From: Polytrichum commune
Taxonomy: Eukaryota; Streptophyta; Polytrichopsida; Polytrichales; Polytrichaceae
Assembly: GCA_950295325.1 (NCBI GenBank)
Contig: OX485805.1
Span: 36,505,501-36,569,500 of the forward strand
Direction of reading: 5' to 3'
DNA: 64,000 nucleotides
A program made the translations under genes and the position numbers. Below are positions 12,443 to 43,585 of this stretch, in pieces. Position 1 is the stretch's first letter; each line of letters opens with the position of its first letter. The notes beneath the pieces are model-generated. The model was not told the origin of the DNA. It made no database searches and saw only the letters and a list, made by a program, of their open reading frames with translations.

Positions 12443-12468
12443 AGAGGCGGTGTCAGTGGCTGAGGCCA

Positions 12469-12520
12469 GGACGAGACTTGTATGTGAGCGTAGAGCGTAG
12501 ATTTGGAGAGCGGAGAGCGT
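12469..12520 (+). repeat. Left terminal inverted repeat of the SWIM transposon, minus copy
   Basis: Starts GGACGAGACTTG, continues TATGTGAGCG, then GAGCGTAGATTTGGAGAGCG. The inverse of 43370-43413 aligns with it (GGGGAAAGTTAG, TATGCGAGCG, GATTTGGGGAGCGGAG). The first 23 bp also align with the termini at 340-362 and 51255-51277. Similarity may extend outward by GAGRCCA at both ends. I could not find a clean target-site duplication. Confidence 0.55.
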
Positions 12521-13238
12521 AGATGAAATAAAAATAGTAAACTTGCAAGACTAAAATTAGGATATTTCAAAAATAGACAAGAATATACTTGGAATATTCC
12601 AGAATCTGCCAGTAATAGTAAAAAATTGGACCTATTTCCATGGGATGTATATGTCATAAAATTTAAAAAATGGCCCTGAATTTGGAATGGTCTCATTAAG
12701 TTTGGAAACCGTGAGGTGGTTGAATTATTAAAACCAAGGATGATCACAAGAAAAAATCAATGAAAATGGATTTTCGGATATTGGTATAATTGAAGAATGA
12801 GTCAATCAAAATACAAAGGAATCAAAATAATGAACTTCCTTCGTTTTTATTCATCACTTTTCTCTTTGTCTTATATGTGAGTCTACTCTATAGCTTGGAC
12901 TTTAGCAATTATCGTATGTGGCCGTGCGGAGTGAAGCTACAGATGAAGAGTCACTTGAATGCGCTGGAGGCCGAAGAGAAACGTCATGTATCTTAAATTG
13001 TTGATGCTTGAATGTATTTACAGAAAATTTAGGCAGTCTTGTAAATAATTATTTTCTGCCTAAGCTGCTAGTAACATGCGGTAGCCGTGCATAGTCTATA
13101 TAGTCTGAATGACAAAACACTTTTTATTGAAAAAAACAATATGAATATTGTCTTGCTGACTCAGTACATGTAATGACAAGGGAATTTTGAGTGGCCACCG
13201 TCCATTGAAAAGAATCTAGGTTGTTTGTAGGTTGGCTC
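12521..13238. other. Subterminal DNA of the minus copy, no gene
   Basis: AT-rich sequence between the left terminus and the end of the transposase reading frame on the minus strand. It presumably includes the 3' UTR of the transposase. No further gene is seen. Confidence 0.5.
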
Positions 13239-14181
13239 CTAGTTGTTCGCCAAATGGTGAGTCAAGAGTCCGCTTTCTAGGACTAGCTTGACCTCATTGA
13301 AACTAAAGGTAGGCGCGTGAATGAAAAACTCTGCCTCGGGATCACGGTGGCAAACCTTCAAAAGAATGAAGTACACATGCTTGCAATAAGAGAATTGGGT
13401 CCTCCCTCTGAACTTAGTCATCGTCTTCTTGAATGCAGGGCAAGTGCAACCCACGAAAGAGCTGATGGTGACCTGATACTGTGTGATGGCAGGAGAAACA
13501 CCCGAATCTAGCCCGATGATGCAGCCATGTCCTGGATAAGGTATCATAGTGATGGAACGGATGCAAGCTTTCAGAGAGTCGGAGGAGGCCATGGAGAGTC
13601 GCTGCGCGGGATTTGGGCGAGTGGCAGTGCGTTTGACCATCTTGCCGTCTCTCTTGCCAGGGTAGCGGTCTGCTTCTGCAAGAATGGGCACTGCGCTAAG
13701 ATTTGCAGGTGGTGGGGCAGAAGAGAACAATCGTCTTGGAGAGACCGGCTTCTTAAGTGGGAGTTGGAATCCAGCTGCTTCAAGTGCAAGAATTTCGGTA
13801 GGCTTGAGGTTTGTGCCTAGCTTCACCGGCCAAACGTCTGGTATCGGCGGCATTTCATGGTCTGCTGAGTGCTTAGCAACCCATTTGCGCCTTGTGCCCT
13901 TCACACAGCGGTCGATGTCATCGGAACAAAAGAAGAATTCTGTCCTCTCTGATAAATTCATGCGTATGTTAGTCCAAACTCCGGTGTAGGTAGGCGCGGC
14001 GGTCGAATTGGCACCCCTCACAATTCTCTCTGTACATTTCTTCTTCGTGACAGCTCTCTGGGCCCAACAGCACTTCGCCGAGGTCTTGGGAAGTCTTGAT
14101 ATGTGCCACTCCTTGACGTTAACCTTCGTTTCTTCGACAGCACTGACATGACGGATCCCCCCCTCGTTGGGCGGGGACGCA
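13239..14181 (-). pseudogene. SWIM transposase, minus copy, C-terminal segment
   Basis: The minus-strand frame from the target duplication ACGCA (14177-14181) to the stop at 13239 encodes EWHISRLPKTSAK, FFFCSDDIDRCVKGT, WPVKLGTN, and a SWIM-type finger CTCPAF...YCKH. The plus copy has the same blocks (47640-47880 and 50230-50820). Joined across the gypsy and solo-LTR insertions to the frame ending DSIPA (at 21471), it reads on in frame as SPPNEGGIRHV. Frames that run upstream into the LTR are artefacts of the insertion. Confidence 0.8.
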
Positions 14182-15158
14182 TGTCGCGCACCTCTCCATG
14201 AGGAGTGCCCGAAACACCATGGGCACAAGGGGGACCCCGGAGTGACACCCGGGACTTGTGGCGCCATTGGTGAGAGGGCCCAAGTGATCCTAGTGTGGGT
14301 GAGGGCCCCGGGCGTTGGGAACGCCTCCCACCCACGGAGACTAGGAGGCACAAGGGTAAGGCCATGAGCTATGCGTAGCTCATGGCGTGGTGATTCTAGA
14401 ATGCTCAAGATCACCTCAATCGGAGGTGTGAGCTAGGAGTTATGGCCATTTGAGTGGGGTGCTGTCCCGGGACAGCGCCCTGGTACAGCAGTGCCTGGGA
14501 GTGATTCCCGGGACTGCCAAGGTTCAAACAGGCATAACTTCCTCAACACTTGCCCGAATGGGGCAAGTGAGGAGTCCATCGGCATCTACGTGAAGCGTAG
14601 ATGAGGATGGAGGGGTTGGTTGTTATGATCAGACATCATACAAGGAAGTTATGATGGTCTGAAGCTGCTGGGCGGGTTCTAGGCCCAGCAGCTAAGGGAA
14701 AATGTCCACTTGGCCCCAACTCTTGGTAGAGAGACAAGAGGTTGGTTGGCGGTGGGATAGGGGCTCCGTGTAGAGTCCTAGAGGCTTATATGGGTGAGGT
14801 GGTGTGGCCTCACCCACCCGAGGCCGAACGGCAAGGCCTCCATGGGCATTGGCCCATTGTGAGGCCATAGTTGCCTAGTATGGTTCGGGTTGTTGTAGTG
14901 TTGCTCCGGCAACGCGATGATCAACATAAGATTGGACTTCCATGGATGGAAGTCAACATCTAAGGAGTGGTTACCGATTAAAGGGGTGAGTCCCGAAATC
15001 AAAGTAGGAGGGTTGGTTCCCCTCCTATGAACTAATGGTCCGGGGTTAGAGGAGCTAACCATTAGCATGGCGGTATGCGAAGGGTTAGCGACTCGTAACC
15101 TTTGCTAGAATTGAAAATTGGCAAGATGGTCAAGGGGGGGCTAGCAAGGGTTGCGACA
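14182..15158 (+). repeat. 5' LTR of gypsy A1
   Basis: 977 bp, TGTCGC...GCGACA. It carries the CTGTCCCGGGACAG palindrome near 14466 and ends directly before the PBS. Confidence 0.95.
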
Positions 15159-15160
15159 CG

Positions 15161-15174
15161 TGGTATCAGAGCAG
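15161..15174 (+). other. Primer binding site of gypsy A1
   Basis: TGGTATCAGAGCAGG begins two bases after the 5' LTR and is complementary to the 3' end of initiator tRNA-Met, the usual primer of plant LTR elements. Confidence 0.9.
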
Positions 15175-15849
15175 GTTTCCAATATTTGAGCTAGCACTTT
15201 GAGGGAAGCATGGCTATCAAATAAGCGGGTTATGATGGTGGCCCGGGGTTTCCAAAAGGTTGTGAGGCTCAAATTGGAACAAGGATCATGTGCAAATGGA
15301 GTTTGACCATACCATTGATTTTAATGGTAATGGTGGGCATGAGGGTGGATTCGGTGAGGAAAATGGAGGTGTCCTTTGAAAAGGGCTCCCGCAAACCTCA
15401 AATAGTATTTGGGGCCAAGAATACCGAATGCACCCAAAACCTTGGAGGGTATTAATGTTGGATTGAAATTTCAATTCGAGATGCTTCGAAGGTTCGGATG
15501 TTGAAATGAACTTGGTGCTAATGAGGCACCCGGGGCCTCTGAAGGCCTATGTGCGCTATTCAAACGCACAAATGAAGGATACACCTAAAACGGACGAGCT
15601 TTCTAAGAAATGCATCGTTTTAGGTGGGGTTTTAAAAGCGGGTGGTGGATGCCTTGTTTAAGTCCCCAAGGCTTCTTGAGGACATGGTGGGGATCATCAA
15701 GTTTGCAAGATCATTGAATCCGATGGTCCCGAAGAAAAGTTTGGCGGCGCATCACCACAAGTGGCTTTAGCCAAAGTTGGTCCCAAAGAAATGAGTGCAA
15801 ATTGTTTGGTTCATTTTACTTAGGCAAAATATGTTGGTGCCGCTAACGG

Positions 15850-16150
15850 AATGTTGAAAGGTGGCTTTATGCTTCCAAGGCAAATCATACTCATGCCGTG
15901 GACGGAATGTTGGAAGGTGGGTTTGTCCTACCAAGGCAATTCATGTTCGTGCCGCATACGGAGTGTGGGAAGGTGGCTTTGTGCTATCAAGGGAAAACAT
16001 GTTTGTTTTGTGGACAAATTATTGGAAATTGCTTTTGTGGCACTAAACCAATTCGTCCCATGGACGAAATGTTAAAAGTTGGCTTTGCGGACCGAGCCAA
16101 AACATATTGTTGCGGTGGACGGAGAATTAGATGGTGGCTTTGTGGCCAAG
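15850..16150 (+). repeat. Short tandem repeats in gag region of gypsy A1
   Basis: Degenerate 55-70-bp units of the type AAGGTGGCTTTATGCTTCC are repeated about five times. Some frames give Cys-rich peptides (CYQGKTCLFCGQ), which may descend from a gag zinc knuckle. Gypsy A2 has the same array inverted at 34530-34870. Confidence 0.6.
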
Positions 16151-16980
16151 GCTAGTAGCCTTAAGCCAAGGCCAAGTCATGTATACCTTGAGGCTCAAAT
16201 GAATGGGAGATATGTCTCATGAGTTGTCAAAGAGGCAACGGACTCTTTCATGAGCCGAAAGCTCACAAGGGAGTTGGGGCTTGCCGATTGATAGAGTGGG
16301 CGAGCCCACCAAGGTGCGGTTTGAAAATGGCGAACCGCATGAGACAAAGGAGGCCGCGATGCATGTAACCTTTCAATGTGGGACATTGGATATTTGTCAA
16401 AATTTCACACCATGTGAAATAGATGAAATGCATGTCATTGTGAAGGCTGCCTTCTTTGAAACTCACATGATAGATGTGAGGTGCAAGCCGGTGTGCTTGC
16501 GGTGCATTTGTGATGTGCCATGATGGCAAAGAATTGAAGTTCAAATTGACAAGGACTCCTATGGTAGGAGGACCCAAGTTGAATTTGGTCTCAATGGACC
16601 AAATGAAAAAAATGGTAAACATAATGGTCGTGGTTCAATTGGAGCAATTCCAAGGAACTCATGGGGAGGCTAGGAAAGATGGGCCTCCCCCAAACCATAC
16701 TTGTGGGATGTTGGTGAGATACAAGGATGTATTCACCAATGTGTTGCTCAAAATGTTACCGCCAAGGAGTGAATTGTAACTTTGCTCAAGAATAAATTGA
16801 GTTCTTGAGGCATGTGGTGACAAAGGAAGTTGGTGGATAAACATGAAGAATATCAAGGCAATCCAAGAGGAGAATTGGCCCTTGACTCAAAAAGGCTTAG
16901 GTCATTGGTTGGCCTAGCCAACTACTACCACCACTTCATTCTAGATTTGTTTTAAGATTGCTAGGACCTTACTCAGCTTA

Positions 16981-17385
16981 TTGAAGAAATGGCTATCCCA
17001 AGAGTGGGATGAGCCTTGTCACCAAGCCTTTGGGAAGCTCAAGAGCAAGTTCCCTTCACAAGATGTGGTTAAGTTTCTGGGTTTTCATAAGCATTTTGAG
17101 GTGCACATGAAGACGAAGGACTTCACCATTGGCGGATGTTGATCCAAGATGGATGACCATTGCTTATGAGAGCATTAAGCTCCATGGTTGTCGAACCTTG
17201 TCCAGCTTGTGCAAGAAATGGCTATCCCAAGAGTGGGATGAGCCGTGCCACCAAGCCATTGGGGAGCTTAAGAGCAAGTTGTCTTTGCCGCCCGTGCTCA
17301 AGTTCGCGGAGCTTGACAAACCTTGTGAGATGCATACGGGGGTGAACGACTTTCCAATGGTGGATTATGTGTAATTGGATGGCCA
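16981..17385 (+). repeat. Tandem duplication of the RT/RNase H junction segment in gypsy A1 (2 units)
   Basis: The segment encoding KKWLSQEWDEPCHQA...VLKF occurs twice with a period of 230 bp (GAAATGGCTATCCC at 16985 and 17215). Gypsy A2 carries four units. Normal gypsy elements have this junction once. Confidence 0.85.
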
Positions 17386-18720
17386 TTGCATATGGGAGCA
17401 TGAAGCTCGATGGTTGTCAAAGAAGACAACCAACTCATGACAAAGAATTTCTTTGCCGTAGTGCATTGCTTGAAGATGTGGCGACACTATTTGGGGTTGC
17501 ACAAAGCAAAGGTCTACATGGACAATGTGTCCTAAAAGAATTTTGACATTCAAGTGCAAGTGAGCGCCAAGTCATTGCGGTGGCATGATAGTTTGGCGCT
17601 TATGAAGGTGGATTTGATCCACAAACCGGACCGTGGAAATGTGGTGCCGGATGCACGAAGTAGACCGGAAAAATTCCAAGCAATGAAAACCATCCAAACC
17701 TTGTGGCTAATGTGTGCCGGCGAAGGAAACTTGTGATGCAAGATACGGGAGGGATAAATTAACTACCCCGAGGCACAAAAGCTTTTAGGTGAGCTTCGCA
17801 AGAGCAAGGTGCTCAAAGAGGTTAAGTTGGTGGACGGATTGTTCAAGTGCAAGCAAAGTTGGGTGTATGTGACACAAGGCAAGTTGAGGGTATCGGTTTT
17901 GAAGGAGGAATTTGATAGTCCTATTGCCGGCCTTAGGAATGGTATCATGGATGTACCATTGGCGGTGCATAAAGGAAGATATAGCCTACTTTGTGAAGGC
18001 TTGAAACAAAGTGCCAAGTGAACCGAGCCTCTTACCAAAAGCAAGGCGGCTTCAACCTATTAACCTAGCTCTCGAGGGGGCACATTCAACACTAGAGTTC
18101 AACCAAGATGGTGAGGATTTGGCCAAGGATGGTGAATAAGTCTTGGAGATGACCAAGTTGTTGGTGGAGAAAGCCCGAAGGTGCTATGGAGTGCAAGTCA
18201 ATGCCGGAAGACGCGAAGTGGAGAATGAGGTGGGCCAAAAGGTGTTGTTGAATGTAAACAACTTCACTTAGCCGAAAGGCCTCACTCCAAAGTTCATGTC
18301 CAAAATTGGAGCTTTGTTTTCCATTGTGGAACAAGTGTTCAAGGACATGTATAGATTGGAATTACTGCCGGAGATCAAAGTGCATCCGACATTTCATGTC
18401 TCATTACGAAAGTCATTTTAGGACGACACCTTGTGGCCCGAACACAAGCAAGTGATTAGGCCACGTCCCGACCTTGTGGATGTCATTTGGAACATGAGGT
18501 AGGAGGGCATCCTCAAGTGTAGGAAGCCCAAGTGAAAAGGAAAGAAAATGTACAAAGGAGTAGTTGGTGAAATGGTGAGGATACCATGAGAAAGAAGCCG
18601 TTTGGGTAGCGGCAAGAGACATGATGAACGGCAAGGAATTGGTAAAGCACTTTGAAGAAACTAAGGCTAGACACTCCAATGAAATGAAGCGTAGGCATTG
18701 ATGAGGACATCAATCTCCTT

Positions 18721-19513
18721 TAGTGGGGGAGAGACGCTAGTAGCATACTTAGCTTCGAGGTTAATTACTCCACAACATGTACTTGTTCTTTGGCTTGAGG
18801 AAATAAAGTCCAAACTTTAGTGGTGCAAAGAGAAAAGTATGAGATGAGGTCCTAGTCTTGTACTTGTGCTTGGTTAATGGAAGAGGGGGAATAGATATGC
18901 CAAACTAGGTTGGGTAAGCCGAGTAATTGGGGGCCATGGCTTGGAGGGGCCTTGGATAAAACCAAGAAACTTCTTAGTTGTGGGCTTGTCCGGGCGGGGA
19001 CAAGGTGATGGCGCGTGCTCATAAAAGTGCTACCCGCGAGCTAACGAGAGTTGGCGCATGGGAGTCATGAACCCATGTCTCGAAAGAGCAAAGTGGGAAC
19101 CGAGTCGGGCGGGACTTGGCATCACCCCCGTGCGATCGAGGCGTGGCTTAACAATGGAAAGCCATCTCGGAGTTGCAACCGAGACAACTTAGTGGAAGCG
19201 TTGAGGTCTCGCCTAGATGTGTCATGTTAGGCTAGTGGAGCCTAACGGGGGAGGCCCCAAAGGAGGGGCAACCCAAGTGATTCCCAAAGTAGGTGGGTCT
19301 AGTATAGGTTAGGTCCTTGGAGGAGTTCCAAGGTCGCTAACGGAACACCTAGTAACGACACCTTTGGGACTATGCCAAATTTGAAGATGCATTGTGGGGG
19401 TCGCGCCCTAAGGTAAACACAATGCCGCACCATAGAGGATGGCAACTTGAGAATTGGTGTGCCGACTACGAGTATAGTCGATGAGGGCATCGACTCCGTT
19501 TGGTGGGGGTGAG
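18721..19513 (+). other. 3' untranslated region and polypurine tract of gypsy A1
   Basis: Non-coding after the chromodomain remnant. The last bases TTGGTGGGGGTGAG (19500-19513) directly before the 3' LTR are the probable polypurine tract. The same sequence sits beside the 3' LTR of gypsy A2, inverted at 30191. Confidence 0.7.
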
Positions 19514-20490
19514 TGTCGCGCACCTCTCCATGAGGAGTGCCCGAAACACCATGGGCACAAGGGGGACCCCGGAGTGACACCCGGGACTTGTGGCGCCATT
19601 GGTGAGAGGGCCCAAGTGATCCTAGTGTGGGTGAGGGCCCCGGGCGTTGGGAACGCCTCCCACCCACGGAGACTAGGAGGCACAAGGGTAAGGCCATGAG
19701 CTATGCGTAGCTCATGGCGTGGTGATTCTAGAATGCTCAAGATCACCTCAATCGGAGGTGTGAGCTAGGAGTTATGGCCATTTGAGTGGGGTGCTGTCCC
19801 GGGACAGCGCCCTGGTACAGCAGTGCCTGGGAGTGATTCCCGGGACTGCCAAGGTTCAAACAGGCATAACTTCCTCAACACTTGCCCGAATGGGGCAAGT
19901 GAGGAGTCCATCGGCATCTACGTGAAGCGTAGATGAGGATGGAGGGGTTGGTTGTTATGATCAGACATCATACAAGGAAGTTATGATGGTCTGAAGCTGC
20001 TGGGCGGGTTCTAGGCCCAGCAGCTAAGGGAAAATGTCCACTTGGCCCCAACTCTTGGTAGAGAGACAAGAGGTTGGTTGGCGGTGGGATAGGGGCTCCG
20101 TGTAGAGTCCTAGAGGCTTATATGGGTGAGGTGGTGTGGCCTCACCCACCCGAGGCCGAACGGCAAGGCCTCCATGGGCATTGGCCCATTGTGAGGCCAT
20201 AGTTGCCTAGTATGGTTCGGGTTGTTGTAGTGTTGCTCCGGCAACGCGATGATCAACATAAGATTGGACTTCCATGGATGGAAGTCAACATCTAAGGAGT
20301 GGTTACCGATTAAAGGGGTGAGTCCCGAAATCAAAGTAGGAGGGTTGGTTCCCCTCCTATGAACTAATGGTCCGGGGTTAGAGGAGCTAACCATTAGCAT
20401 GGCGGTATGCGAAGGGTTAGCGACTCGTAACCTTTGCTAGAATTGAAAATTGGCAAGATGGTCAAGGGGGGGCTAGCAAGGGTTGCGACA
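19514..20490 (+). repeat. 3' LTR of gypsy A1
   Basis: 977 bp and the same sequence as the 5' LTR where compared. It is followed by the duplication ACGCA. Confidence 0.95.
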
Positions 20491-20497
20491 ACGCAGG

Positions 20498-21470
20498 TGT
20501 CGCGCACCTCTCCATGAGGAGTGCCCGAAACACCATGGGCACAAGGGGGACCCCGGAGTGACACCCGGGACTTGTGGCGCCGTTGGTGAGAGGGCCCAAG
20601 TGATCCTAGTGTGGGTGAGGGCCCCGGGCGTTGGGAACGCCTCCCACCCACGAAGATTAGGAGGCACAAGGGTAAGGCCATGAGTTATGCGTAGCTCATG
20701 GCGTGGTGATTCTAGAAAGCTCAAGAACACCTCAATCGGAGGTGTGAGCTAGGAGTTATGGCCATTTGAGTGGGGCGCTGTCCCGGGACAGCGCCCTGGT
20801 ACAGCAGTGCCTGGGAGTGATTCCCGGGACTGCCAAGGTTCAAACAGGCATAACTTCCTCAAGACTTGCTCAAATGGAGCAAGTGAGGAGTCCATTGGCA
20901 TCTACGTGAAGCGTAGATGAACATGGAGTGGTTGGGTGTTATGATCAGACATCATACAAGGAAGTTATGATGGTCTGAAGCTGCTGGGGGGGTTCTAGGC
21001 CCAGCAGCTAAAGGAAAATGTCCACTTGGCCCCAACTCTTGGTAGAGAGACAAGAGGTTGGTTGACGGTGGGGTAGGGGCCCCGCGTGAAGTCCTAGAGG
21101 CTTATATGGGTGAGGTGGTGTGGCCTCACCCACCCGAGGCCGAACGGCACGGCCTCCACGGGCATTGGCCCAATGTGAGGCCATAGTTGCCTAGTATGGT
21201 TCGGGTTGTTGTAGTGTTGCTCCGGCAACGCGATGATCAACATGGGATTGGACTTCCATGGATGGAAGTCCACATCTAGGAATGGGTTACCGATTAAGGG
21301 GTGAGTCCCTAAAGCAAAGTAGGAGGGTTGGTTCCCTCCTATGAACTATAAGGTCCGGGGTAGGAGGAGCTAACCATTAGCATGGCGGAATGCGAATGGT
21401 TAGCGCTCGTAACCTTTGCTAGAATTGAAAATTGGCAAGATTGCTAAGGGGGTTAGCAAGGGTTGCGACA
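20498..21470 (+). mobile_element. Solo LTR, gypsy family A (973 bp)
   Basis: TGTCGC...GCGACA with duplication GCAGG (20493-20497 and 21471-21475). It lies 7 bp from the end of gypsy A1; the two duplications overlap in the original target ACGCAGG, so two insertions hit the same spot. It keeps the perfect palindrome around CTGTCCCGGGACAG (20774-20795). Confidence 0.93.
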
Positions 21471-24192: not shown

Positions 24193-24558
24193 GATGAGGG
24201 GAATGAGGCCTTGCGCGGTGATGGAAATATGGAAGAGGTTTCTCAACATTGTGGGAAACCTATTTATTGGAAATGAATGGCCAAAGACAACAATGATGGA
24301 CAGATCCAAATGACGGATGAAAGATGAAGGAAAACATGAATAAATACTTCTAAAAATGACCCACCCTAAACCGAGTCTGAAAGGGAGCAGAAAGGCTGTC
24401 AAGATATACCAAATTATATCAGTCAAGTCATGGTAGACATTCTACTTGACAAGATAGTATTTATTTTCAAATAGTAGAATCCAATAACATGCATATATAC
24501 TAAACATGATAGTACCTCATGAATAGGAAATTCCAAACATTAGAATGCAACATTGTTA
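24193..24558. other. Spacer between transposase and Cys/His gene, minus copy
   Basis: AT-rich spacer equivalent to 6643-7084 of the plus copy. It may contain the transposase 5' UTR. No gene. Confidence 0.4.
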
Positions 24559-32838: not shown

Positions 32839-33730
32839 ATGCAAAGGCCATCCATCTTACACAAAATCCACCATTGGCAAAGTCATTCACCCCCGTATGC
32901 ATCTCAAAAGGTTTGTCAAGCTCCGCGAACTTGAGCACGGGCGGCGAAGAGAACTTGCTCTTAAGCTCCCCAAAGACTTGGTGACAAGGCTCATCCCATT
33001 CTTGGGATAGCCATTTCTTTCACGAGTCACACAAGGTCGGACAACCATCGAGCTTCATGCTCCCATATACAATGGTCATTCATCGTGCATCAACATCCAC
33101 CAATGGTAAAGTCACTCGCCCCCGTATGCACCTCAAAAGGTTTGTCAAACTCCAAAAACTTGAGCACGGGTGGCGAATAGAACTTGGTCTTAAGCTCCTC
33201 AAAGACTTGGTGGCAAGGCTCATCCCACTCTTGGGATAGCCATTTCTTGCACAAGTTGGACAAGGTTGAACAACCATCAAGCTTCATGCTCTTATATGCA
33301 ATGGCCATCCATTTTGCCTTAACATCCGCCAATGGTAAAGTCACCCGCCCCCGTATGCACCTCAAAGGTTTGCCAACTCCACGAACTTGAGCACGGGCGG
33401 CGAAGAGAACTTGGTCTTAAGCTTCCCGAAGGCTTTGTGGCAAGGCTCATCCCACTCTTGGGATAACCATTTCTTGCACACGCCGGACAAGGTTCAACAA
33501 CCATGGAGGTTAATGCTTCCATAAGCAATGGTCATCCATCTTGGATCAACATCCGCCAATGGTAAAGTCCTTCGCCTCCATGTGCACCTCAAAATGCTTA
33601 CGAAAATCTGGAAACTTAACCACATCTTGTGAAGAGAACTTGCTCTTGAGCTCCCCAAAGGCTTGGTGACAAGGCTCATCCCACTCTTGGGATAGCCATT
33701 TTCCTCAATAAGTTGATTAAGGTCCTAGCA
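32839..33730 (-). repeat. Tandem array of the RT/RNase H junction segment in gypsy A2 (4 units)
   Basis: Units of about 227-231 bp at 32839-33069, 33070-33296, 33297-33526 and 33527-33730, each encoding variants of KKWLSQEWDEPCHQ and PPVLKF on the minus strand. Units differ from one another and some have frame changes. Confidence 0.85.
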
Positions 33731-34529
33731 ACCTTCAAAAACTCTTGAATGAAGTGGTGGTAGTAGTTGGCTAGGCCAACAAATGACCTAAGCATTTTTT
33801 GAATGAAGGGCCAATTCTCCTTTTGGATTGCTTTGACATTCTTCATGTTCATCCACCAACGTCCTTTGTCACCACATACCTCAAGAACTCAATCTCTCGT
33901 TGAGCAAAGTTATTTTTCACTCCTTGGCGGTAATGTTTTTGGGCAACACATTGGTGAATACATCCTTCTATCTCACCAACATCCCACCAATGTGATTTGG
34001 GGGAGGCCCATCTTTCCTCGCCTCCCCATACGTTCTTTGGAGTTGCTCCAATTGAACCACGACAATTATGTTTATATTTTGCATTTGGTCCATTAAGACC
34101 AAATTCAACTTGGGTCCTCCTACCATAGGAGTCCTTGTCAATTTGAACTTCAATTCTTTGCTATTATGACACATCATAATGCATTGCAAACACCCGGCTT
34201 GCACCTCACATCTATCATGTGAGTTTCAAAGAAGGCGGCCTTCACAATGACATGCATTTCATCTATTTCACTTGGTGTGAAATTTTGACAAAAATCCAAT
34301 GTCCCACATTGAAAGGTTACATGCATCGCGGCCTCCTTTGTTTCATGCGGTTCGCCCTTTCCAAACCGCACCTTGGTGGGCTTGCCCGCTCTATCAATTG
34401 GCAAGCCCCAACTCCCTTGTGAGTTTTGGGCTCATGAAAGAGTCCATTGCCTCTTTGTCAACTCATGAGACATATCTCCCATTCATTTGAGCCTCAAGGT
34501 ACAAAAGACTTGGCCTCGGCTTAAGGCTA

Positions 34530-34870
34530 CTAGCCTTGGCCACAATGCCATCGTCTTACATTTGGTCCTCGGCAACTTGGCTTGGCTTGGTCCGCAAAGC
34601 CAACTTCAAACATTTCGTGCGCGGGACAAATTGGTTTGGTGCCACAAAACCAATTTCTAATAGTTTGTCCGCAAAACAAACATGTTTTGCCTTGGTAGCA
34701 CAAAGCCACCTTCCCACACTCCGTCCGCGGCACGAACATGAATTGCCTTGGTAGGACAAACCCACCTCCCAACATTCTGTCCGCGGCACAAGTATGATTT
34801 GCTTTGGAAGCATAAAGCCACCTTTCAACATTCCATCTGCGGCACCAACATGTTTTGCCTAAGTAAAATG
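34530..34870 (-). repeat. Short tandem repeats in gag region of gypsy A2
   Basis: Inverted counterpart of 15850-16150: degenerate units of about 55-70 bp with AAGGTGGCTTTRTGC on the minus strand, giving Cys-rich peptides in some frames. Confidence 0.6.
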
Positions 34871-35510
34871 GACCAAACAATTTGCACTCATTTCTTTGGG
34901 ACCTAATTTGGCTAAAGCCACTTGTGGTGATGCGCCGCCAAACTTCTCTTTGGGACCATCGGCTTCAATGCTCTTGCAAATTTGATGGTCCCCACCATGT
35001 CCTCAAGAAGCCTTGGGGACTTAAACAAGGCATCCACCACCCGCTTTTAAAACCCCACCTAAAAGGATGCATTTCTTAGAAAGCTCGTCCGTTTTAGGTG
35101 TATCCTTCATTTGTGCGTTTGAATAGCGCACATAGGCCTTAAGAAGCCCCGGGTGCCTCATTAGCACCAAATTTATTCCAACATCAATACCTTCCAAGCA
35201 TTTCGAATTGGAATTTCAATCCAACATTAATGCCCTCCAAGGTTTTGGGTCCTTTCGGTATTCTAGGCCCCAAATGTTTTTTTGAGGTTTGAGGGAGCCT
35301 TTTTCAAAGCACTCCTCCATTTTTCTTACCGAATCCACCTTAGTGCCCACCATTGTCATTAGAACCAATGGTATGGTTAAATTCCATTTACACATGATCT
35401 TTGTTCCAATTTGAGCCTTACAACCTTTTGGAAAACCCGGGCTCACCATAATAACCCTCAGGTTTGATAGCCATGTCTCCCTCAAAGTGCTAGCTCAAAA
35501 TATTGGAACC

Positions 35511-35524
35511 CTGCTCTGATACCA
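35511..35524 (-). other. Primer binding site of gypsy A2
   Basis: TGGTATCAGAGCAGG on the minus strand, two bases from the 5' LTR; initiator tRNA-Met type. Confidence 0.9.
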
Positions 35525-35526
35525 AG

Positions 35527-36499
35527 TGTCGCAACCCATGCTAGGTCCCTTAATAATCTTGCCAATTTTCAATTCTAGCAAAGGTTACGAGTCGCTAACC
35601 CTTCGCATTCCGCCATGCTAATGGATAGCTCCTCTTACCCCGGACCAATAGTTCATAGGAGGGAACCAACCCTCCTACTTTGCTTTCGGGACTCACCCCT
35701 TAATCGGTAACCCATTTCCCCAATGTGGACTTCCATCCATGGAAGTCCAATCCTATGTTGATCATCGCGTTGCCGGAGCAACACTACAACAACCCGAACC
35801 ATACTAGGCAACTATGGCCTCACAATAGGCCAAAGCCCATGGAGGCCTTGCCGTTCGGCCTCGGGTGGGTGAGGCCACACCACCTCACCCATATAAGCCT
35901 CTAGGACTCTACGCGGGACCCCTACCCCACCGTCAAGAGACCTCTTGTCTCTCTACCAAGAGTTGGGGCCAAGTGGACATTTTCCCTTAGCTGCTGGGCC
36001 TAGAAGCCCCTAGCAGCTTCAGACCATCATAACTTCCTTGTTTGGTGTCTGATCTTAACAACCAACCACTCCATCTTCATCTACGCTTCACGTAGATGCC
36101 GATGGACTCCTCACTTGCCCCATTTGGGCAAGTACTGACGAAGTTATGCCTGTTTGAACCTTGGCAGTCCCGGGAATCACTCCCAGGCACTGCAGTACCA
36201 GGGCGCTGTCCCGGGACAGCGCCCCACTTAAATGGCCATAACTCCTAGCTCACACCTCCGATTGAGGTGTTCTTGAGCATTCTAGAATCACCACGCCATG
36301 AGCTACGCATAGCTCATGGCCTTACCCTTGTGCCTCCTAGTCTCCGTGGGTGGGAGGCGTTCCCAACGCCCGGGGCCCTCACCCACACTAGGATCACTTG
36401 GGCCCTCTCACCAACGGCGCCACAAGTCCCGGGTGTCACTCCGGGGTCCCCCTTGTGCCCATGGTGTTTCGGGCACTCCTCATGGAGAGGTGCGCGACA
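35527..36499 (-). repeat. 5' LTR of gypsy A2
   Basis: 973 bp, matching the 3' LTR at 29218-30190 where compared. Confidence 0.95.
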
Positions 36500-36833
36500 A
36501 TTTTAGTATTGGTTGAAGGTCATATAAGGATGCATAATATACTTATAAATATCAGATTTTGAGGTTATAATGTGGTGCCCCCGAGAGGTGCCGTTAACGG
36601 CACCCCTCGGGGGTATTGTTTTTTATTTTTTTGTTGCTTGTATGGTTTGAGGTTTTTCGTTGCGCTTACAGGTGGCCTCAATGGGTTTTTTTTCTTTGTT
36701 TGATTATGAAGCTACAGGTTTTGGTTATTGATCTGATTTTAAAGTTTAGGAGTGCGCTTTAGTTCAATTATTTGGAGTTAAGGACAAGTTCTTATCACTT
36801 CTAATGTATTTTGATGCTGAGACCTTTGTTCAG
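36500..36833. repeat. Last satellite unit of block 1, then intron end
   Basis: 36500-36640 completes the array unit cut by gypsy A2 (hairpin centre near 36590). The rest is AT-rich and ends in TTTGTTCAG, a good splice acceptor at 36833. Confidence 0.75.
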
Positions 36834-39180
36834 ATGAAGTCCGCCTTACAGATGGACAGTTGAAACTCAAGCTTCACGACCTTGCCATTAAGGAGAGCGT
36901 TCCAACTGCATCTAGGCTTGAGAAACTTAAATGGCAACCAAAACAAAAGGGTCGTCTCTTTATCCCTCTTTGTCGCATGATGCCTCTTCCTGTTGTGAGA
37001 CCGTTTCTTAAAAATGATGTATCTCAATTTGCTACTCATTTTATGATTGATGGCTACATGGAAGGGTGTGGTTTCTTTTATGTGGCATTGGAGGACCACC
37101 ATGGACACACCAATGACGTGACACCCAATGTGGTTGCCAAGTGGTCTTCGGAGTGGAAGGAGGTGAATGACGAATTTGAGAAGAAGCTTCTTTCAGATGA
37201 CGATTTGAAGATATTTTCTAATAAGATGTTCATGGTTTGGGATGGGAACCATCGGCTTCAAGCATGGATGCCTATCATTGAGCAAGTTCACACTCATGAT
37301 ATTATTTGGCATTTCTGTGTTGAGGGTGTAATCCTTGAACCTAGAGGAGACGTTCCATCCGTGATAGCCGCTCTGCACGAAGTTAATTGGTAAGATCCTA
37401 ATCCCTGGTTTTGAATTTTGCTTTTAGTCATGCATCATTCTAATATATATTTTGGTTTTCCAGGAAGAATAAAAAATCACACGTCACCACAAACCTAGTT
37501 CACAAGCTATTTCGCATACAGAATCTAGCACCCCAGCCACTGTCCTACTTTGAGGGTTTAGTATCTCCGACTATGTTGGAGGCTGCAAGGAAGAAGCAGG
37601 CTGGGAAAAATCGCACATCACCCTCACCGTTGAAGGTCTCAATGCGGTCCTTTACCAGGTAATCTCAACCTCTAATATTATCGTGTCATTTGAATTATGC
37701 ATATACAATTCATGTAACTGATTGTATTGTTTGTTTGACCTATAGCAAGAGATTGCAGAAGCTGCCCATGCCGCTGAGGACAAGTACAAGATGAAGAACC
37801 CAGATTCTAGCAATTGGACGGAGCGTAATGCACAGGAATGGATTAGGAAAGCTGTGAAGAAGGTGGAGGATAAGCTTGTCGCGGAGCTCAAGAAGCATTT
37901 GCCTGTCGCGGATCCCAAATTAACTCCTGCTTTTCTAGAGAAAGTGAAGGCTCATTATGAGAAGTTTGATAAACCTGAGATGCTTAAAGAGAAATTGTAT
38001 ATGCTAGCTACTTCAGCGATGCCTTCAAGAATGATGGTTAAGTGGCTCCAGAGGTGGAACTCCTCTGCGGCAATCCGGGATGCGCATCGCTTTCCCAAGA
38101 CTGCCTTCGCCGACTCCAAGTTCCCGGAATGGCTTAATCGTGCAACATGGTGGGCGCAGGTGAGCATTCATCTCAAAGTTCATGTTGTCATTTGCATGTC
38201 CAGTAATGAGCTATGGAAATCAACCTTAACCTTTCATACTATATCTAATTGCGCATGGCATCAGATTGCGGTGGAGGCTGAGGAGCTCTTCTCGGGTGTT
38301 CTCACAGATCTTGGAGAAGTTGTTGACTACAATCCCCATGGCGAAGATCCGATCCTAACTATTTTCGATTACGTGGAGGCTATGAGGTGTCAACTTTGGG
38401 AGATTGCATCCTTTGTTGAATTAGGTGGAGATAACGGCGCTCACAAGAACAACCCCCCGGACAAGCAACCTTTTCTTCGTTCAAGCTGTCCGCATGGTCC
38501 TTTACAGGTACTTTCGGTACGTTCTCCTGCCGAGGAAGGCCATCTCTAAGGTACCCGTTTTCTTCCCTAACTACTTGGATATCGAAAGCCCTGATTCCAT
38601 GTTCACTACTGCAATTATAAGGACATGGGATCCAATCTATTTTCAACAGTGCGGATGGCATTTGGATTGTCCGTTCAAGAAGCCTCCTCCATTTGACATC
38701 GCACTCAGGGACTCCATCCAACCTCTCTTACCTTCTCCCGCCGCATCAATTTCTGTCTCACAGTCTCCTACACCTCCTATGGGTGGCTCCTCCAAAAGCA
38801 AGACAGCTACTACAGGGAGTAGGCCTCGGGTATCTAAGCGGAAGGCTGCTGAGGTGGTTGAGGAGCCAATGGACGAAGATATTCAAGTAACAGAGGATAT
38901 CGGTGATCAACCTGATTCACTTGCGGACCTTCTTATCTCACATACTCCGCGGGAACCTGCTCTAAAGCGTATTCGCCTAGGAGTTGCTGGTGAATCCAAT
39001 CCCATCAGATTCATCCCACCTGCTGTCAAGACAATGTCTTCATCCCAGGCATACAACTCCTCCTCTGCTTCTCCTCGGGTTCTTTTACTTAATGACTCCT
39101 TCCACAGGATGTTAGATTATAAGACAAAGCACAACAAATTCCCTTCAACTTACGATAACATGGTTGCTTTTCTCAATGAG
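36834..39180 (+). pseudogene. ParB/sulfiredoxin-like N-terminal exons of the ParB-methyltransferase-like gene
   Basis: Exons 36834-37389, 37464-37658, 37746-38159 and 38265-39180 have consensus borders. The first has FIPLCRMMPLPVVRPFLKND and then MVWDGNHRLQAW (37234-37269), the pattern of ParB/Srx-fold domains (a box like G-E/N-H-R-L-x-A). Charged helical stretches (AVKKVEDKLVAELKKHL) and a Ser/Pro-rich basic linker (PRVSKRKAAEVV) follow. Two single-base indels are likely: in GGGAAAAA at 37602-37610 (the other frame reads KSHITLTVEGLNAVLYQ into the next exon) and near 38470 (the frame switches to FFVQAVRMVLYRYFRYV). The first exon starts in phase 1, so upstream exons exist, possibly 25637-25996. 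The two indels make this copy non-functional unless they are sequence errors. Confidence 0.6.
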
Positions 39181-40867
39181 GTAAATATTCTGCTTAATTC
39201 CCATTCAATTCGGCTCACCTTCCTCTATTCACCAAATGCATCTTCCCTTAACGCCATGGTCTGCTTAGGATGTTTAATATGCAAATGAAAATCTCATTTT
39301 AAGGTTATAATGTGGTGCCCCCAAGAGGTGCCGTTAAAGGCACCCCCCTCGGATGACTTTTTTTTAATTTATCTGGTGCTTGTAAATGGCCTGGTTATAC
39401 ACTATATGGTTAAGGATGACTCAATATAGTTAGAAATTTCAGGTTATAATGTCGTGCCCCCGAGAGGTGCCGTTAACGGCACCCCCCTCGGGGATTTTTT
39501 TTTTGATTTTTTTGGTGCTTGAAAATGGCCTGTCTACACACTCTAAGGTTGAGGATGAGTCAATATGGCTAGAAATTGCTCGTTGGTCATATATTCGGAC
39601 CCCCTTAAGTTGATGTTGGTCTTGGTTGAAGGTCATATAAGGATGCATAATATACTCATAAATATCAGATTTTGAGGTTATAATGTGGTGCCCCCGCGAG
39701 GTGCCGTTAACGGCACCCCCCTCGGGGGGTTTTTTTTGGATTTTTCGGTGCTTGAAAGTGGCCTGTTTATGCACTCTAAGGTTGAGAGTAAGTCAATATG
39801 GCTAGAAATTGCTGGTTGGTCATATATTCGGACCCCCTTAAGTTGATGTTGGTCTTGGTTGTAGGTCATATAAGGATGCATAATATACTCATAAATATCA
39901 GATTTTGAGGTTATAATGTGGTGCCCCCGATAGGTGCCGTTAACGGCACCCCCCTCGGGGGTTTTTAAAAAAAAAATTTTGGTGCTTGAAAATGGCCTGT
40001 CTACACACTGTAAGGTTGAGGATGAGTCAATATGGCCATAAATTTCAGGTGCGTCATATATTCGGACCCCCTTAAGTTCATTTTGGTCTTGGTTGAAGGT
40101 CATATAAGGATGCATAATATACTCATAAATATCAGATTTTGAGGTTATAATGTGGTGCCCCCGAGAGGTGCCCTTAACGGCACCCCCTATGGGGGTCTGT
40201 TTTTTTATTTTGTTGGTGCTTGAAAATGGCCTGTTTATGCATTCTAAGGTTGAGGCGAAGTCAATATGGCTAGAAATTGCAGGTGGGTCATAGGGTTTAG
40301 GGTTTAGGGTCATATAAGGATGCATAATATACCCATAAACCAGATTTTGAGGTTATAATGTGGTGCCCCCGAGAGGTGCCGTTAACGGCACCCCCCTCGG
40401 GGGTTTTTTTTTTAACTTTTTTGGTGCTTGAAAGTGGCCTGTTTATGCACTCTAAGGTTGAGAGTAAGTCAATATGGCTGGAAATTGCTCGTTGGTCATA
40501 TACTCGGACCCGTTACGGTCATTTAAAGCTTGGTTAATGGTCATATTAGGATGCATAATACACTCATAAATATAAGATTTTGAGGTTAATATGTGGTGCC
40601 CCCGAGAGTTGCCGTTCACGGCACCCCCCTCGGGGGACTTTTTTTTTGATTTTTTTGGTGCTCATATATGGCCTGGATATGCACTAATAGGTTTAGGATG
40701 ACCGAATATGGTTAGAAATTTCAGGTTGGTCATATAGGTGGACCCGCTACGTTCATTTAATTCTTGGTTAATGGTCATATTAGGATGCTTGATATGGTAA
40801 TGAAAATCAAATTTTTCGATAACGGCACCCTCTCGAGATATGCCGTTCACGGGTTTTTTCTTTTTAG
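39181..40867. repeat. Hairpin satellite array, block 2 (8 units), inside an intron
   Basis: The donor GAG|GTAAAT at 39181 and acceptor TTTTTAG at 40867 enclose eight units of the same satellite, with hairpin centres near 39332, 39470, 39706, 39940, 40172, 40380, 40612 and 40845 (the last degenerate). The flanking exons join in phase 0. At 40291-40310 part of one unit is replaced by TTTAGGG repeats. Confidence 0.88.
40291..40310. repeat. Interstitial telomere-like tract in the satellite
   Basis: TAGGGTTTAGGGTTTAGGGT stands in place of about 45 bp of a satellite unit, between GGGTCA and CATATAAGG. Confidence 0.8.
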
Positions 40868-41861
40868 GTTGGAGCATCCAGGGAATTCTTCTTCTCCGGC
40901 AAGGTGTTGCATAAGGCTGCGGTGGACCTCGTCATTGCAGAGTATCCTGATGGTTTGCATGTCCCAGGAGTTTCTGAATTCCCGGGGCAAGTTCCAAATT
41001 GGAATAAGCAGGTTCCGAACTTTATCAAGTTCACCATTGGTTTTTGTCAGGGCTATCTTCACGACGATGGCGCACTCCTCTTATTTTATCCTGACAGTGT
41101 GCAAATCAAGAAGGAGGTCTTGAGCTTTCTCTACAACAACAACTTGGAGGTCAAGGAGGAATGGACCATCGTTAATTCTCTACACCTCACTCACCCTATG
41201 CATAACTCTAAGCGGGTGAGTAATTGTAGCCATTTCCCACTCTTCAAGTTCGAAGTCATTCATACTTTCAATCACATTGCTAACAATTCGAGGCCTATGT
41301 TTGATGTCCAGACTCTGAAATTCAAAGCAATCGTGTTGGTTCGATCTTTCTCCACACCTTTGCTTAGGCCACCCAAGGAGTTTGTTATTTCTTCCAGTGA
41401 CAAATTTGAAGATGTTGACCTTGCAAATGATGACGTTCTTTTCAACATTGTCACCTCTGATACTGCACTCAAGCGCAACGACGGTGACACATTCTGGAGG
41501 GGCCCTAAAGAGAAGGCAGTGTCCCTGCTCCAGCTTCTAATCAGTGGCCTTAGCCCTCCAGGCGGGATTATATGTGACCTCACTGCTGGAACTGGTATGA
41601 GTAATTTGTGTAACATTCCCATGCCTCTAGACTTAGGCAATTCAATCACCTTCTACTAATTCATTTGTTTTGCTCTTTGTAGGTGCCTCGGTTCTTGCAG
41701 CACAATCTACTAACAGGGCAATAGTGGCACTTGAGGGAGACAAGGAATTGTACGAAGAAATTTTGCACCCAATACAGGTCGCAGCCTCGGAGTCTCTAGG
41801 GGTCGATCCAACTCACGTTGTAGACCTTGGCGAGGACGACGACGATGCCCTCCCTCAATAG
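40868..41861 (+). CDS. Class-beta DNA methyltransferase-like C-terminal exons
   Basis: Exons 40868-41594 and 41683-41861 join as ICDLTAGTG|ASVLAAQS. PKEKAVSLLQLLISGL resembles motif X, and DLTAGTGASVLAAQSTNRAI then VALEGDKELYEEI resembles motif I and the following IGIE-D-Y segment of N6-adenine/N4-cytosine methyltransferases, whose class-beta order puts the catalytic motif before motif X. The candidate catalytic stretch is VDLVIAEYPDG (40921-40953), where active enzymes have [DNS]PP[YFW], so this one may be inactive. GALLLFYPDS (41074-41103) fits the strand after motif IV. GTGAGT...CAG at 41216-41311 (96 bp, frame-neutral) may be an extra intron. The C terminus is acidic (GEDDDDALPQ). The frame is intact here and continues in phase from the ParB-like exons. 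Confidence 0.6.
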
Positions 41862-42175
41862 GGTGCAGTTAATCTATGTGAGTAAGTTTGTTGTCATCTT
41901 AAACTTAATGTTGAGTATGTTGCATTTGATTGGAAGTATTCTAACAATCGTAATTTCTCCTCTGTTGGTGCAGTCTGATGGATCAATACTTCGGCTCGCC
42001 GACTAGTCCTACCATGCGACTTCCTTCTTATGCCGAGGATATGGCAGTAGCTTATGCCAAATACTCCTCCCATAGCTCTAGTGCCTCTTCTAGTCCACGT
42101 GAGAGATACGATCCAAGAGTACTTAGATACATAGATCAAAGTGCTTCGGAGAGTGAGGATGAGTTTATTCCTTGA
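41862..42175 (+). CDS. Possible extra 3' exon with acidic Ser-rich tail
   Basis: After the stop at 41861, CTATG|TGAGTAAG and TTGGTGCAG (41972) could bound another intron. The next frame, 41978-42175, encodes MDQYFGSPTSPT and ends ASESEDEFIP. It could be an alternative C terminus or a downstream gene. Weak support. Confidence 0.3.
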
Positions 42176-43390
42176 ACTCCATTTTGTATTGGATTGTATT
42201 ATTTTTGGCTTTTAGATTTCCGACGCAAGTCTCATACTTGCTCTTCTTTATTTCATTCCCATAATGTCAACCCGCATTGCATTTTTCAATTATTATTGTA
42301 AATATTTTTAGTTTGTGGATTAGCCCTTAAGTATAGTTCAAGTATCCCTAAACGGTATGCCTCTCACAATCTTAACCGCTAATGTAGCATCCACCCATTC
42401 AAATATAAAGTTGGTGCCTCACACACCTCCTCCTTGTTTCACTAAATCATAAATACTCAATAATACTTAAGTTGCACACCACACAACACTTTCTATAATG
42501 TTCACCCTCAAATGTTAACCCTCGGGAAACGATCATAGTTAACATTTATTAAGGTGTTAACAGTTACCAATTATAAAATTGTTTTATCGACCAATATACA
42601 AATCTTCACATTTATTAATATAAGCATTTTTGAAGAGTCCTTGTGAGAGAATACCATTCATAAAATTGCAAACCCAATCAAAACTTTATTCAATATGAAG
42701 TTTAGAAATCATGGGTGAAGTATGAATCATGGGCATGCACAACTTGCAAATATTTCTCAATTTGCACCAACAAACCCACATACTTGGACACCCACATGAA
42801 CGTGTTTCCATGTACCTTCTAATGGAAGTTCTCATGTGCCTCCATTCTTACACTTCCGTCACTAGAACTAAACGTAGCCAAACGTAGTCTTTCCAAAGAG
42901 TAGTTATGGTTGCATTTCATTCGTTAACATATATAGAGTCAAATTTAAAAGTGTGCAATATGTGGGGAGTAGAATAAAGTTAACAATTAGAAAGGGTTAA
43001 CATTTATAGGTGTAACATTAATAGAGTGGACTATATGTGGGGAATTCTTTTCATATACCTCCTTCGTGTTTCCTTCATATAGTAATTTTTATTTGATTTA
43101 CAGTGATATGTACTATAGTACACAAGTTTGGTAATTGTATTTATGACGTAATAGTGATGTAAGCCCTAATTTTGTATTTTATTATAATATATATATGTTT
43201 CAAAACTATGTAAACGTTTCAAATGGGGAAATGTTGTCCTATTTCCATGGTAATAGAGACCCTAACTCATAAAAATTTCTAAAAATAGCTCTACCCTAAA
43301 CCCATAATCTCACGGTTATAGGTGCATTTTCCCTCTCAATTCATGTCTCAAATGGAGTTCTCCGCTCCCCAAATCGCTGCTCTCCGCTCT
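42176..43390. other. AT-rich right arm of the minus copy, no gene
   Basis: Long AT-rich stretch between the ParB-methyltransferase-like gene and the transposon terminus. CACGGTTATAGG near 43313 is the subterminal motif also found near 200 and 51120. No gene is seen. Confidence 0.55.
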
Positions 43391-43413
43391 CCGCTCGCAT
43401 ACTAACTTTCCCC
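43391..43413 (-). repeat. Right terminus of the SWIM transposon, minus copy
   Basis: CCGCTCGCATACTAAC then TTTCCCC, preceded by ATCGCTGCTCTCCGCTCT. It is the inverse of the left end at 12469 and aligns at the same spacing with 340-362 and 51255-51277. Confidence 0.55.
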
Positions 43414-43585
43414 TGGTCTCTTCAAGTTGCCCGTGGCTGTCACAAGTTCGTATGAAATCACAACGACGTGTTCAAAGTCTATCAAATTTTCTTGAGTGTG
43501 TTTGGCAAATGTTCAACTCCATACATCCATTTAGTAGTTATTCCATTTCATCCAATTTTGTTCACGCATCATTTGTTTTTTCCAG

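Follow-up and report, generated by a model that had tools for sequence, protein, structure and literature searches.

The window analysed here, a stretch of 64,000 nt from Polytrichum commune (GCA_950295325.1, OX485805.1, positions 36,505,501-36,569,500, forward strand), holds a Mutator-like element of family A (12469..43413, minus strand, delimited by comparison with other copies) with a transposase on the minus strand and a ParB-methyltransferase-like gene on the plus strand. Copies elsewhere in the genome showed that both genes move together as a single unit, bounded by terminal inverted repeats and flanked by target site duplications (TSDs) of 10 bp, and dN/dS estimates showed that purifying selection maintained the second gene between subfamilies A and B. 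This adds a phage-like ParB-methyltransferase architecture to the genes that a eukaryotic DNA transposon can carry, adjoining palindromic satellites that vary between families along with it.

Comparison with other copies bore out the matching inverted ends proposed in the original prediction, namely a left terminal inverted repeat beginning GGACGAGACTTGTATGTGAGCG (12469..12491, plus strand) and its counterpart, in reverse complement GGGGAAAGTTAGTATGCGAGCGG, on the right (43391..43413, minus strand). The left end, GGACGAGACTTGTATG, matches the left ends of other copies, and on the right four of the five other copies fetched align up to window positions 43411-43414 and diverge beyond, the alignment of the fifth (C1:800628) ending 24 bp earlier. 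Three later insertions are not part of the transposon: a gypsy-type LTR element with an LTR pair and the 5-bp TSD ACGCA (14182..20490, plus), a solo LTR with the TSD GCAGG (20498..21470, plus) and a second gypsy-type LTR element with the TSD ATTTT (29218..36499, minus). Manual subtraction of these three insertions leaves about 16.4 kb, as had been estimated, and the predicted contents are all present: the transposase exons, the Cys/His open reading frame, the basic/acidic exon, the ParB-like and methyltransferase-like exons and the hairpin satellites. This copy of the element is decayed; its ParB gene has two apparent frameshifts, and in-frame stops interrupt its transposase. A TSD was looked for and not found at this copy and at C1:28166677, and C1:13114747 has a 10-bp TSD with one mismatch.

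The transposase gene is read, on the minus strand, from an N-terminal and core part with in-frame stops (22130..24159, from the open reading frame and copy comparison), a TPC-part exon recognised by comparison with other copies (21608..22015) and a C-terminal part with a SWIM-like zinc finger that scored 18.4 bits, short of the cut-off of 19.6 (13257..14168); a small Cys/His protein of 139 aa is encoded nearby (24562..24978, minus, from the open reading frame and copy comparison). Acidic residues are conserved in the transposase alignment. The 1186-aa transposase protein assembled for a second, plus-strand copy in the window gave no SWIM match, nor any hit among Pfam families at E values up to 5, so that "Mutator-like" describes the look and mode of working of the element and its superfamily membership is provisional. 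A survey of Mutator-like elements (PMC6446971) describes several features shared with this one, namely a SWIM-like zinc finger (a candidate one here), a 10-bp TSD, terminal inverted repeats and an antisense second gene, the last being present in many such elements; the 10-bp TSDs, seen in 11 of 11 copies examined of family G67, fall within the 8-11 bp range given there. ParB and methyltransferase have no occurrence in the main text of that survey. What had been predicted as a new class of large transposon is better taken to be a Mutator-like element whose second gene is of a new kind.

Ownership of the second gene by the transposon, which had been proposed from position and termini, is supported by its distribution in the window's own assembly (407.8 Mb), where the ParB-like exon occurs in at least 280 places. 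Of the 122 transposase exons scored, 64 have a listed ParB exon 5' of them on the other strand, no more than 15 kb away, against 0.67 such pairs under random placement (maximum 4 in 300 trials), and pairs in other arrangements numbered 8. For 58 of the 122, no ParB exon is among the matches listed at distances up to 15 kb, and for 48 there is none up to 30 kb, so elements lacking the ParB gene may exist. With regard to relatives that share the termini and lack the gene, named in the original prediction as a contrary outcome, perfect 10-bp TSDs lie just outside the predicted termini, with both genes between them, in all 11 G67 copies, which had been selected for the listing of both genes; the ParB gene is also present in all three loci (PF, G67 and G68) chosen from the transposase side while their ParB exons were unknown, families A, B and C having been found through the ParB motif itself. 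The random-placement control and the TSD-flanked copies together reject the chance nesting of a host gene. A single-copy host locus, the other contrary outcome raised in the original prediction, is rejected by the 51 exact copies of the ParB motif pattern that are spread over seven contigs, a count that takes in the window.

Gene capture is frequent in Mutator-like elements, and the second gene could on that account be a host gene fragment acquired by transduplication with no role for the element; however, it was found in all six families sampled, it is constrained between A and B, and recent, near-identical open copies exist, all of which makes such an origin very improbable. The constraint is read from dN/dS values between A and B of 0.13-0.15 for the ParB part, 0.07-0.13 for the middle region (MID) and 0.14-0.15 for the methyltransferase-like part (MT), compared with 0.15-0.19 for the transposase core, values that are not independent of one another since five A copies were set against one B copy.

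On the plus strand, a basic and then acidic exon (25641..25973), found in the equivalent position in 5 of 10 fetched copies, splices in phase to position 36834. The predicted exon thus exists but is most simply read as exon 1 of the ParB gene and not as a separate unit, which places the satellites within introns of that gene. It is followed by the ParB-like exon, recognised by its motif and copy comparison, with GNHR in MVWDGNHRLQAW (36834..37389), exon 3 with an apparent frameshift, read from the sequence (37464..37659), and, from copy comparison, exon 4 of the middle region (37748..38158) and exon 5 with the other apparent frameshift (38265..39181). The methyltransferase-like exon, identified by profile similarity, has DLTAGTG at motif I and EYPD at the motif IV position (40870..41594), and copy comparison identified a last coding exon with an acidic end and the stop (41683..41861).

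The GNHR motif is common to A, B, C, G68, G67, PF and the lycophyte protein described below, and corresponds to GxxR, the P motif with which the ParB-CTPase fold binds NTP (PMC12704722). "ParB" is a motif-level name. In Pfam, at E values up to 5, a ParB family was hit by none of the eight rows of the ParB exon alignment A3, some of which are fragments, the window exon matched none in PHROGs and NCBIfam at E up to 1, and the best match of the exon profile in the PDB was an unrelated protein (E 0.07); we therefore call the gene ParB-like and not a ParB family member. Viral contigs scanned with the ParB exon and with P0044 yielded no relatives. An AlphaFold model of the exon, built from a two-row alignment, reached a pLDDT of 35.4, too low for the model to be of use. 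In phages the ParB-CTPase fold is often fused to an N6_N4 methyltransferase (PMC12704722), and such phage and prophage fusions share with the second gene the joining of a ParB-like module to a class-beta methyltransferase-like domain, the GxxR motif and the link to mobile elements. The second gene differs from these fusions in encoding about 1,000 aa, in its introns and long middle region, in the lack of a DPPY motif and in its location in a eukaryotic DNA transposon; the commonest eukaryotic form of the fold is said in the same source to be sulfiredoxin.

The methyltransferase-like domain resembles DpnA (E 3.8e-8) and CcrM (E 1.1e-7) over positions 25-238 of a 248-position profile and matches PF01555 at E 1.6e-5, with 25.4 bits, below the cut-off of 26.7. 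In class-beta N6/N4 DNA methyltransferases the catalytic motif IV is [DNS]PP[YFW]. This motif is absent from all six families sampled and from the lycophyte protein: the corresponding residues are EYPD in A, B and G68, DYPD in C, DLPE in G67, HIPE in PF and DFPT in the lycophyte, and two A copies deviate with EYHD and AYPD. In addition, motif I is altered in C and G68 (AST). Since the catalytic motif is replaced throughout, the domain may not methylate, and it probably serves as a structural module or one that binds DNA or a cofactor. A working enzyme that puts 6mA or 4mC on the DNA of the element itself, so as to conceal or regulate it, a marking role that has reportedly been suggested for the phage fusions, would fit the profile similarity, the purifying selection on the MT exon and the canonical-looking motif I of the lycophyte relative (DPFVGCGST), but the changes at motifs IV and I make it unlikely. 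The predicted ParB-methyltransferase fusion is thus upheld for the GxxR motif and the DpnA/CcrM similarity, and not for ParB family membership or conserved catalysis.

Among the best 8000 and 7998 word-sharing candidates scored in two protein searches, so that further relatives may exist, one homologue was found, the hypothetical protein O6H91_08G053900 (P0001) of the lycophyte Diphasiastrum complanatum, which is 21% identical to the query segment across 95% of its length. It has ParB-like and methyltransferase-like parts in the same order as the second gene and differs by an extra N-terminal Myb domain of the telomere-repeat type and by its canonical-looking motif I. P0001 alone carries the gene among the 11 matches of the second search: five of the other ten, read in sequence, have no ParB motif, and the remaining five, which have Myb domains, are listed as covering 5-6% of the query. 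Retrotransposons of dinoflagellates and charophytes also include transposable elements with acquired DNA methyltransferase genes (PMC5890265), those being C5-cytosine enzymes, unlike the ParB/class-beta protein of the DNA transposon studied here.

A new observation is that the satellites in the ParB gene introns contain improbable inverted repeats. In the window, the intron-1 satellite consists of units of about 234 bp with 11 sites within three mismatches of GGTGCCGTTAACGGCACC (26376..29216), continues beyond the gypsy-type insertion with an exact palindrome at 36587 (36505..36640), and recurs as a second array of the family A satellite, recognised by repeat comparison, in a later intron (39267..40860). 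Five subfamilies (A, B, C, G67 and PF) were covered by a shuffling test, and in four of them an improbable inverted repeat of 16-20 bp was present, its length being matched by 0 of 200 shuffles of the satellite unit in A, 0 of 200 in C, 2 of 200 in G67 and 1 of 200 in PF; the B site is an imperfect inverted repeat equalled by 105 of 200 shuffles. The palindromes were seen to differ between subfamilies. Those of A (GGTGCCGTTAACGGCACC) and C (GGTGGCCGTTAACGGCCACC, in units of about 105 bp) have a common core with arms that differ yet remain symmetric, and that of G67 looks by eye like that of PF (TGTC..GG..CC..GACA). Through such subfamily-specific palindromes the element may recognise copies of itself. 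Alternatively, they might be selfish or structural DNA, forming hairpins or affecting transcription or splicing, that has grown within long introns and for which the element encodes no trans-acting partner. Tandem satellites can expand alone, the B repeat is imperfect, and, with the palindromes lying inside the introns, linkage is expected to produce some of the agreement with the ParB tree and could produce all of it. This alternative seems improbable in view of the improbable inverted repeat in each of four families with differing units, the symmetric arm changes between A and C, and the fact that A, B and PF each have sites in at least two introns of the gene.

Family G67 keeps a transposase 95% identical to that of A (DDE), while its second gene (37% identity in the ParB part, 38% in MID and 37% in MT) and its palindrome both differ. 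In the transposase tree G67 lies with A and B, separate from PF and C (100% support), and in the second-gene tree it groups with PF (100% support). The first 45 residues of exon 1 are 78% identical to A, placing the start of exon 1 outside the exchange. With a transposase common to A and G67 but palindromes that differ between them, it was judged unlikely that the transposase alone reads the palindromes. The same comparison bears on the possibility that the second protein assists transposition as an accessory factor, MURB-like or end-bridging, with palindromes that serve synapsis or divergent-promoter control and have no effect on silencing: the divergent arrangement with the transposase and the antisense open reading frames of many Mutator-like elements (PMC6446971) are in its favour, but the partners of these 95% identical transposases are 37% identical, which argues against tight co-evolution, and the sites lie in introns away from the element ends. 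We regard this role as rather doubtful.

The reading that we favour, though at somewhat less than an even chance, draws on analogy with VANC of the Arabidopsis VANDAL elements, in that the second protein would dimerise on the palindromes of its own Mutator-like transposon, load onto that element as an NTP-dependent clamp and keep own-family copies out of host silencing. Exchange of most of the second gene, introns included, would on this reading switch the palindrome type and hence which copies are served. VANDAL/VANC shares with our element the combination of a Mutator-type element with an extra gene and short tandem-repeat motifs in the introns of that gene, of a type varying by family; VANC motifs occur as tandem repeats upstream of VANA21 and within VANC21 and VANB21 introns (PMC5735166). 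YAGTATTAY, the motif of VANC21, lacks palindromic symmetry, and a VANC-type domain was not among the Pfam matches of this element's proteins. If the protein does bind the palindromes, it would represent a solution independent of VANC for finding own copies and countering silencing.

A more specific and more tentative version of this shielding model, modelled on ParB/parS, can be outlined. Of the two divergent genes carried by the superfamily, the putative SWIM-type transposase and the fusion of a ParB-CTPase-like module (GNHR) with a class-beta methyltransferase-like domain, the latter would encode an NTP-switching ParB-like protein with a repurposed methyltransferase part that loads on the family-specific palindromes arrayed in its introns and spreads along the element, shielding it from host silencing. 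Exchange of the gene together with its introns would then re-target whole families. Binding of the palindromes by the protein would open ParB-type loading and spreading to tests on eukaryotic chromatin, and the families offer proteins paired with their sites in a natural series, in which one exchange has taken place over a transposase that hardly changed.

The plus-strand copy in the window (6214..51277, its right end near 51277 read by eye) belongs to a different family, PF, and its transposase gene is interrupted by the nested family A copy along with further insertions. Sequence comparison placed its Cys/His protein at 6214-6639 and its transposase at 7085-8890, 46646-47426 and 50220-50819 (all plus). 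It had been predicted to show the same gene order; a ParB exon was not detected in it within the window, and one PF member elsewhere in the genome does carry this exon.

The element at 12469-43413 is a Mutator-like transposon of the family that we call A; such a carrier is already known, and what is new is the second gene, ParB-methyltransferase-like and divergent from the transposase, together with its palindrome arrays. The original prediction had given this gene to the transposon, and its ownership is established by copies of the related family G67, in which both genes lie between termini with a TSD. Decisive in this respect is a G67 element of 17,134 bp (contig C4:39563415-39580548 of the same assembly), which holds both genes inside its termini and has the TSD GAGCCATTCT on both sides; at the corresponding boundaries, perfect 10-bp TSDs were also found for ten of ten further G67 copies, which had been selected for having both genes listed. 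Across the assembly (407.8 Mb, 64 contigs), there are 51 matches to the ParB motif pattern on seven contigs, the window included, and 0 to its reversed control; two exon searches combined (best 150 of 1203 and best 150 of 1135 candidates scored) gave at least 280 distinct ParB exon places. Among 122 transposase exons scored of 1721 candidates, at least 64 are accompanied by an oppositely oriented ParB exon that lies 5' of them at a distance of up to 15 kb, compared with 0.67 divergent pairs by random placement (maximum 4 in 300 trials, with sizes of contigs partly approximate), and at least 8 pairs among the matches listed are in other arrangements. An earlier count using the first ParB list alone gave at least 22 divergent pairs of 27 within 15 kb versus 1.28 by chance, and all pair counts are lower bounds, being drawn from the best-scoring candidates. 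Among the matches listed, 48 of the 122 transposase exons are without a ParB exon within 30 kb, and some elements may truly be without one. At the first ten ParB motif matches, all on contig C1 and examined with about 10 kb on either side, a divergent transposase is present at eight and absent at two, and the methyltransferase exon is missing at three; of three loci chosen from the transposase side, one per family in PF, G67 and G68, all three have both a ParB and a methyltransferase-like exon. Three copies of family C (C1:14264516, C1:17441498 and C1:24770121) have lost the transposase N-terminal half and the methyltransferase exon in common, as though a deleted form had gone on to multiply.

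The window element itself is real: in four of five other fetched copies the right end is alignable up to window 43411-43414, and in the fifth the alignment stops 24 bp earlier, while the left end GGACGAGACTTGTATG is common to the window element and other copies. Removal of two later gypsy-type insertions (14182-20490, TSD ACGCA; 29218-36499, TSD ATTTT) and a later solo LTR (20498-21470, TSD GCAGG) leaves the predicted length of about 16.4 kb. The minus strand carries a multi-exon transposase together with a small Cys/His ORF, and the plus strand the second gene, with seven exons as modelled. The basic/acidic exon reported earlier is present; in the predicted model it is exon 1 of the second gene, because the splice 25973/36834 is phase-correct. 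Exon 2 carries MVWDGNHRLQAW, the last two exons encode the methyltransferase-like domain, and the satellites sit inside introns of the predicted gene. This copy is decayed by frameshifts and stops. The surrounding plus copy, previously considered a family member, is of the same superfamily but is another element (PF), whose transposase gene hosts the nested window copy.

With regard to the second protein, a five-sequence profile of its C-terminal domain matches DpnA (E 3.8e-8) and, across nearly the whole domain, CcrM (E 1.1e-7), and the domain also matches PHROG methyltransferases; on these matches it is of class-beta DNA methyltransferase type. The motif IV position reads EYPD in A, B and G68, DYPD in C, DLPE in G67, HIPE in PF, DFPT in Diphasiastrum, and EYHD and AYPD in two decayed A copies, DPPY being absent there from every family sampled and from Diphasiastrum. 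In the ParB-like module, GNHR is found in every family sampled; GxxR has been described as the NTP-binding P motif of the ParB-CTPase fold, which in phage proteins is frequently fused to N6_N4 methyltransferases (PMC12704722). Searches of Pfam, PHROGs and NCBIfam gave no ParB family HMM match for the exon, and its AlphaFold structure was of too low quality for use (pLDDT 35). Among the best 8000 word-sharing protein candidates scored, one full-length homologue was found, the Diphasiastrum complanatum protein O6H91_08G053900, which has 1124 aa and aligns with 95% of the query segment at 21% identity. It carries an extra telomere-repeat-type Myb domain at residues 5-56, ahead of the ParB-like module, as a possible replacement DNA-binding part.

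Between five copies of subfamily A and one of subfamily B, dN/dS was 0.13-0.15 for the ParB exon, 0.07-0.13 for MID, 0.35-0.44 for MID2, 0.14-0.15 for the methyltransferase exon and 0.25-0.28 for the last exon of the second gene, and 0.15-0.19 and 0.10-0.22 for the transposase core and TPC part; A-C and B-C values were left out, their synonymous sites being close to saturation or beyond it. Since this constraint resembles that of the transposase, the methyltransferase-like domain is maintained, though probably for something other than ordinary catalysis. Within A, the ParB exon gives 0.77-2.57, from a small number of changes, and MID 0.24-3.58. Taken together, the values between and within subfamilies fit an active transposon gene, constrained in the active lineage and relaxed after insertion. 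At least four G67 ParB exons, the query's own locus included, are identical to the query and at least ten more are at 99%; judging from these, G67 was recently active. In the window copy, the C-terminal part of the transposase (13257-13844) is nearest to subfamily B (dN 0.027, as against 0.152 for an A copy), which suggests inter-subfamily recombination.

Tandem satellites lie in intron 1, and also in later introns of A, B and PF, and vary in sequence and length from family to family. Their inverted repeats are GGTGCCGTTAACGGCACC in A (unit about 234 bp), GGTGGCCGTTAACGGCCACC in C (about 105 bp), CTGTCGGATCCGACAG in G67 (about 170 bp; 19 exact, 2 slightly shorter), GTGTCTCGGTCCCGAGACAC in PF (about 295 bp) and the imperfect GGTGCCTGTAACGGCACC in B (about 211-287 bp). 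Among 200 shuffles of each unit, the number at least as symmetric as the real one was 0 for A, 0 for C, 2 for G67, 1 for PF and 105 for B. The A and C palindromes have the core CCGTTAACGG in common, with arms that are unlike yet symmetric. In a G68 element (contig C3:12053700-12063629), an assembly gap of about 5,000 N precedes the ParB exon and leaves the satellite unreadable.

A and G67 are 95% identical in their transposase cores and 37-38% in the ParB, MID and methyltransferase exons, and their palindromes differ. G67 groups with PF in the second-gene tree and with A and B, separate from PF and C, in the transposase tree, each with 100% support; over the first 45 residues of exon 1, however, A and G67 share 78% identity, and the exchange therefore would have begun downstream of this start. 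Palindrome type seems to follow the second gene, as G67 and PF palindromes, by eye, have TGTC..GG..CC..GACA in common. This agreement is partly due to linkage, because the sites lie in the second gene's introns, but linkage does not explain why symmetry is kept in different satellites. Most likely, the second protein would recognise the palindromes as a dimer and act on DNA of its own family, and the putative ParB fold suggests that it could undergo clamp loading and spreading. A role that is accessory to transposition, or in promoter control, is possible; our best guess is that the protein might serve counter-silencing of its own family's DNA, because the Arabidopsis VANDAL elements are described as using VANC proteins and motif arrays inside introns in this way (PMC5735166). 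A literature search, with most subscription papers and preprints outside its range, found no published Mutator-like or other transposable element with a ParB-methyltransferase gene, and neither 'ParB' nor 'methyltransferase' occurs in the main text of a Mutator-like element survey (PMC6446971) or of a 2026 plant gene capture review.

Further elements are present in the window. By eye, 52390-63090 is another Mutator-like element with GGGGGCGCTCTGACAGCTCCGAAACTGCCCAG-type inverted repeats at its ends; it resembles Ulp1-carrying MULEs in having a Peptidase_C48 (Ulp1) ORF (56596-58200) and long minus-strand ORFs (59010-61552). Just past the right end of the A element, an ORF with DUF7869 (43468-44196; E 2.4e-36) is probably a piece of a further transposon-like gene. 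The plus copy is interrupted by repeats starting with TGTGAGCCCAAA at 2762-3290, 47885-48414 (88% identical to each other) and from 8893 onward, perhaps a small LTR-type element.
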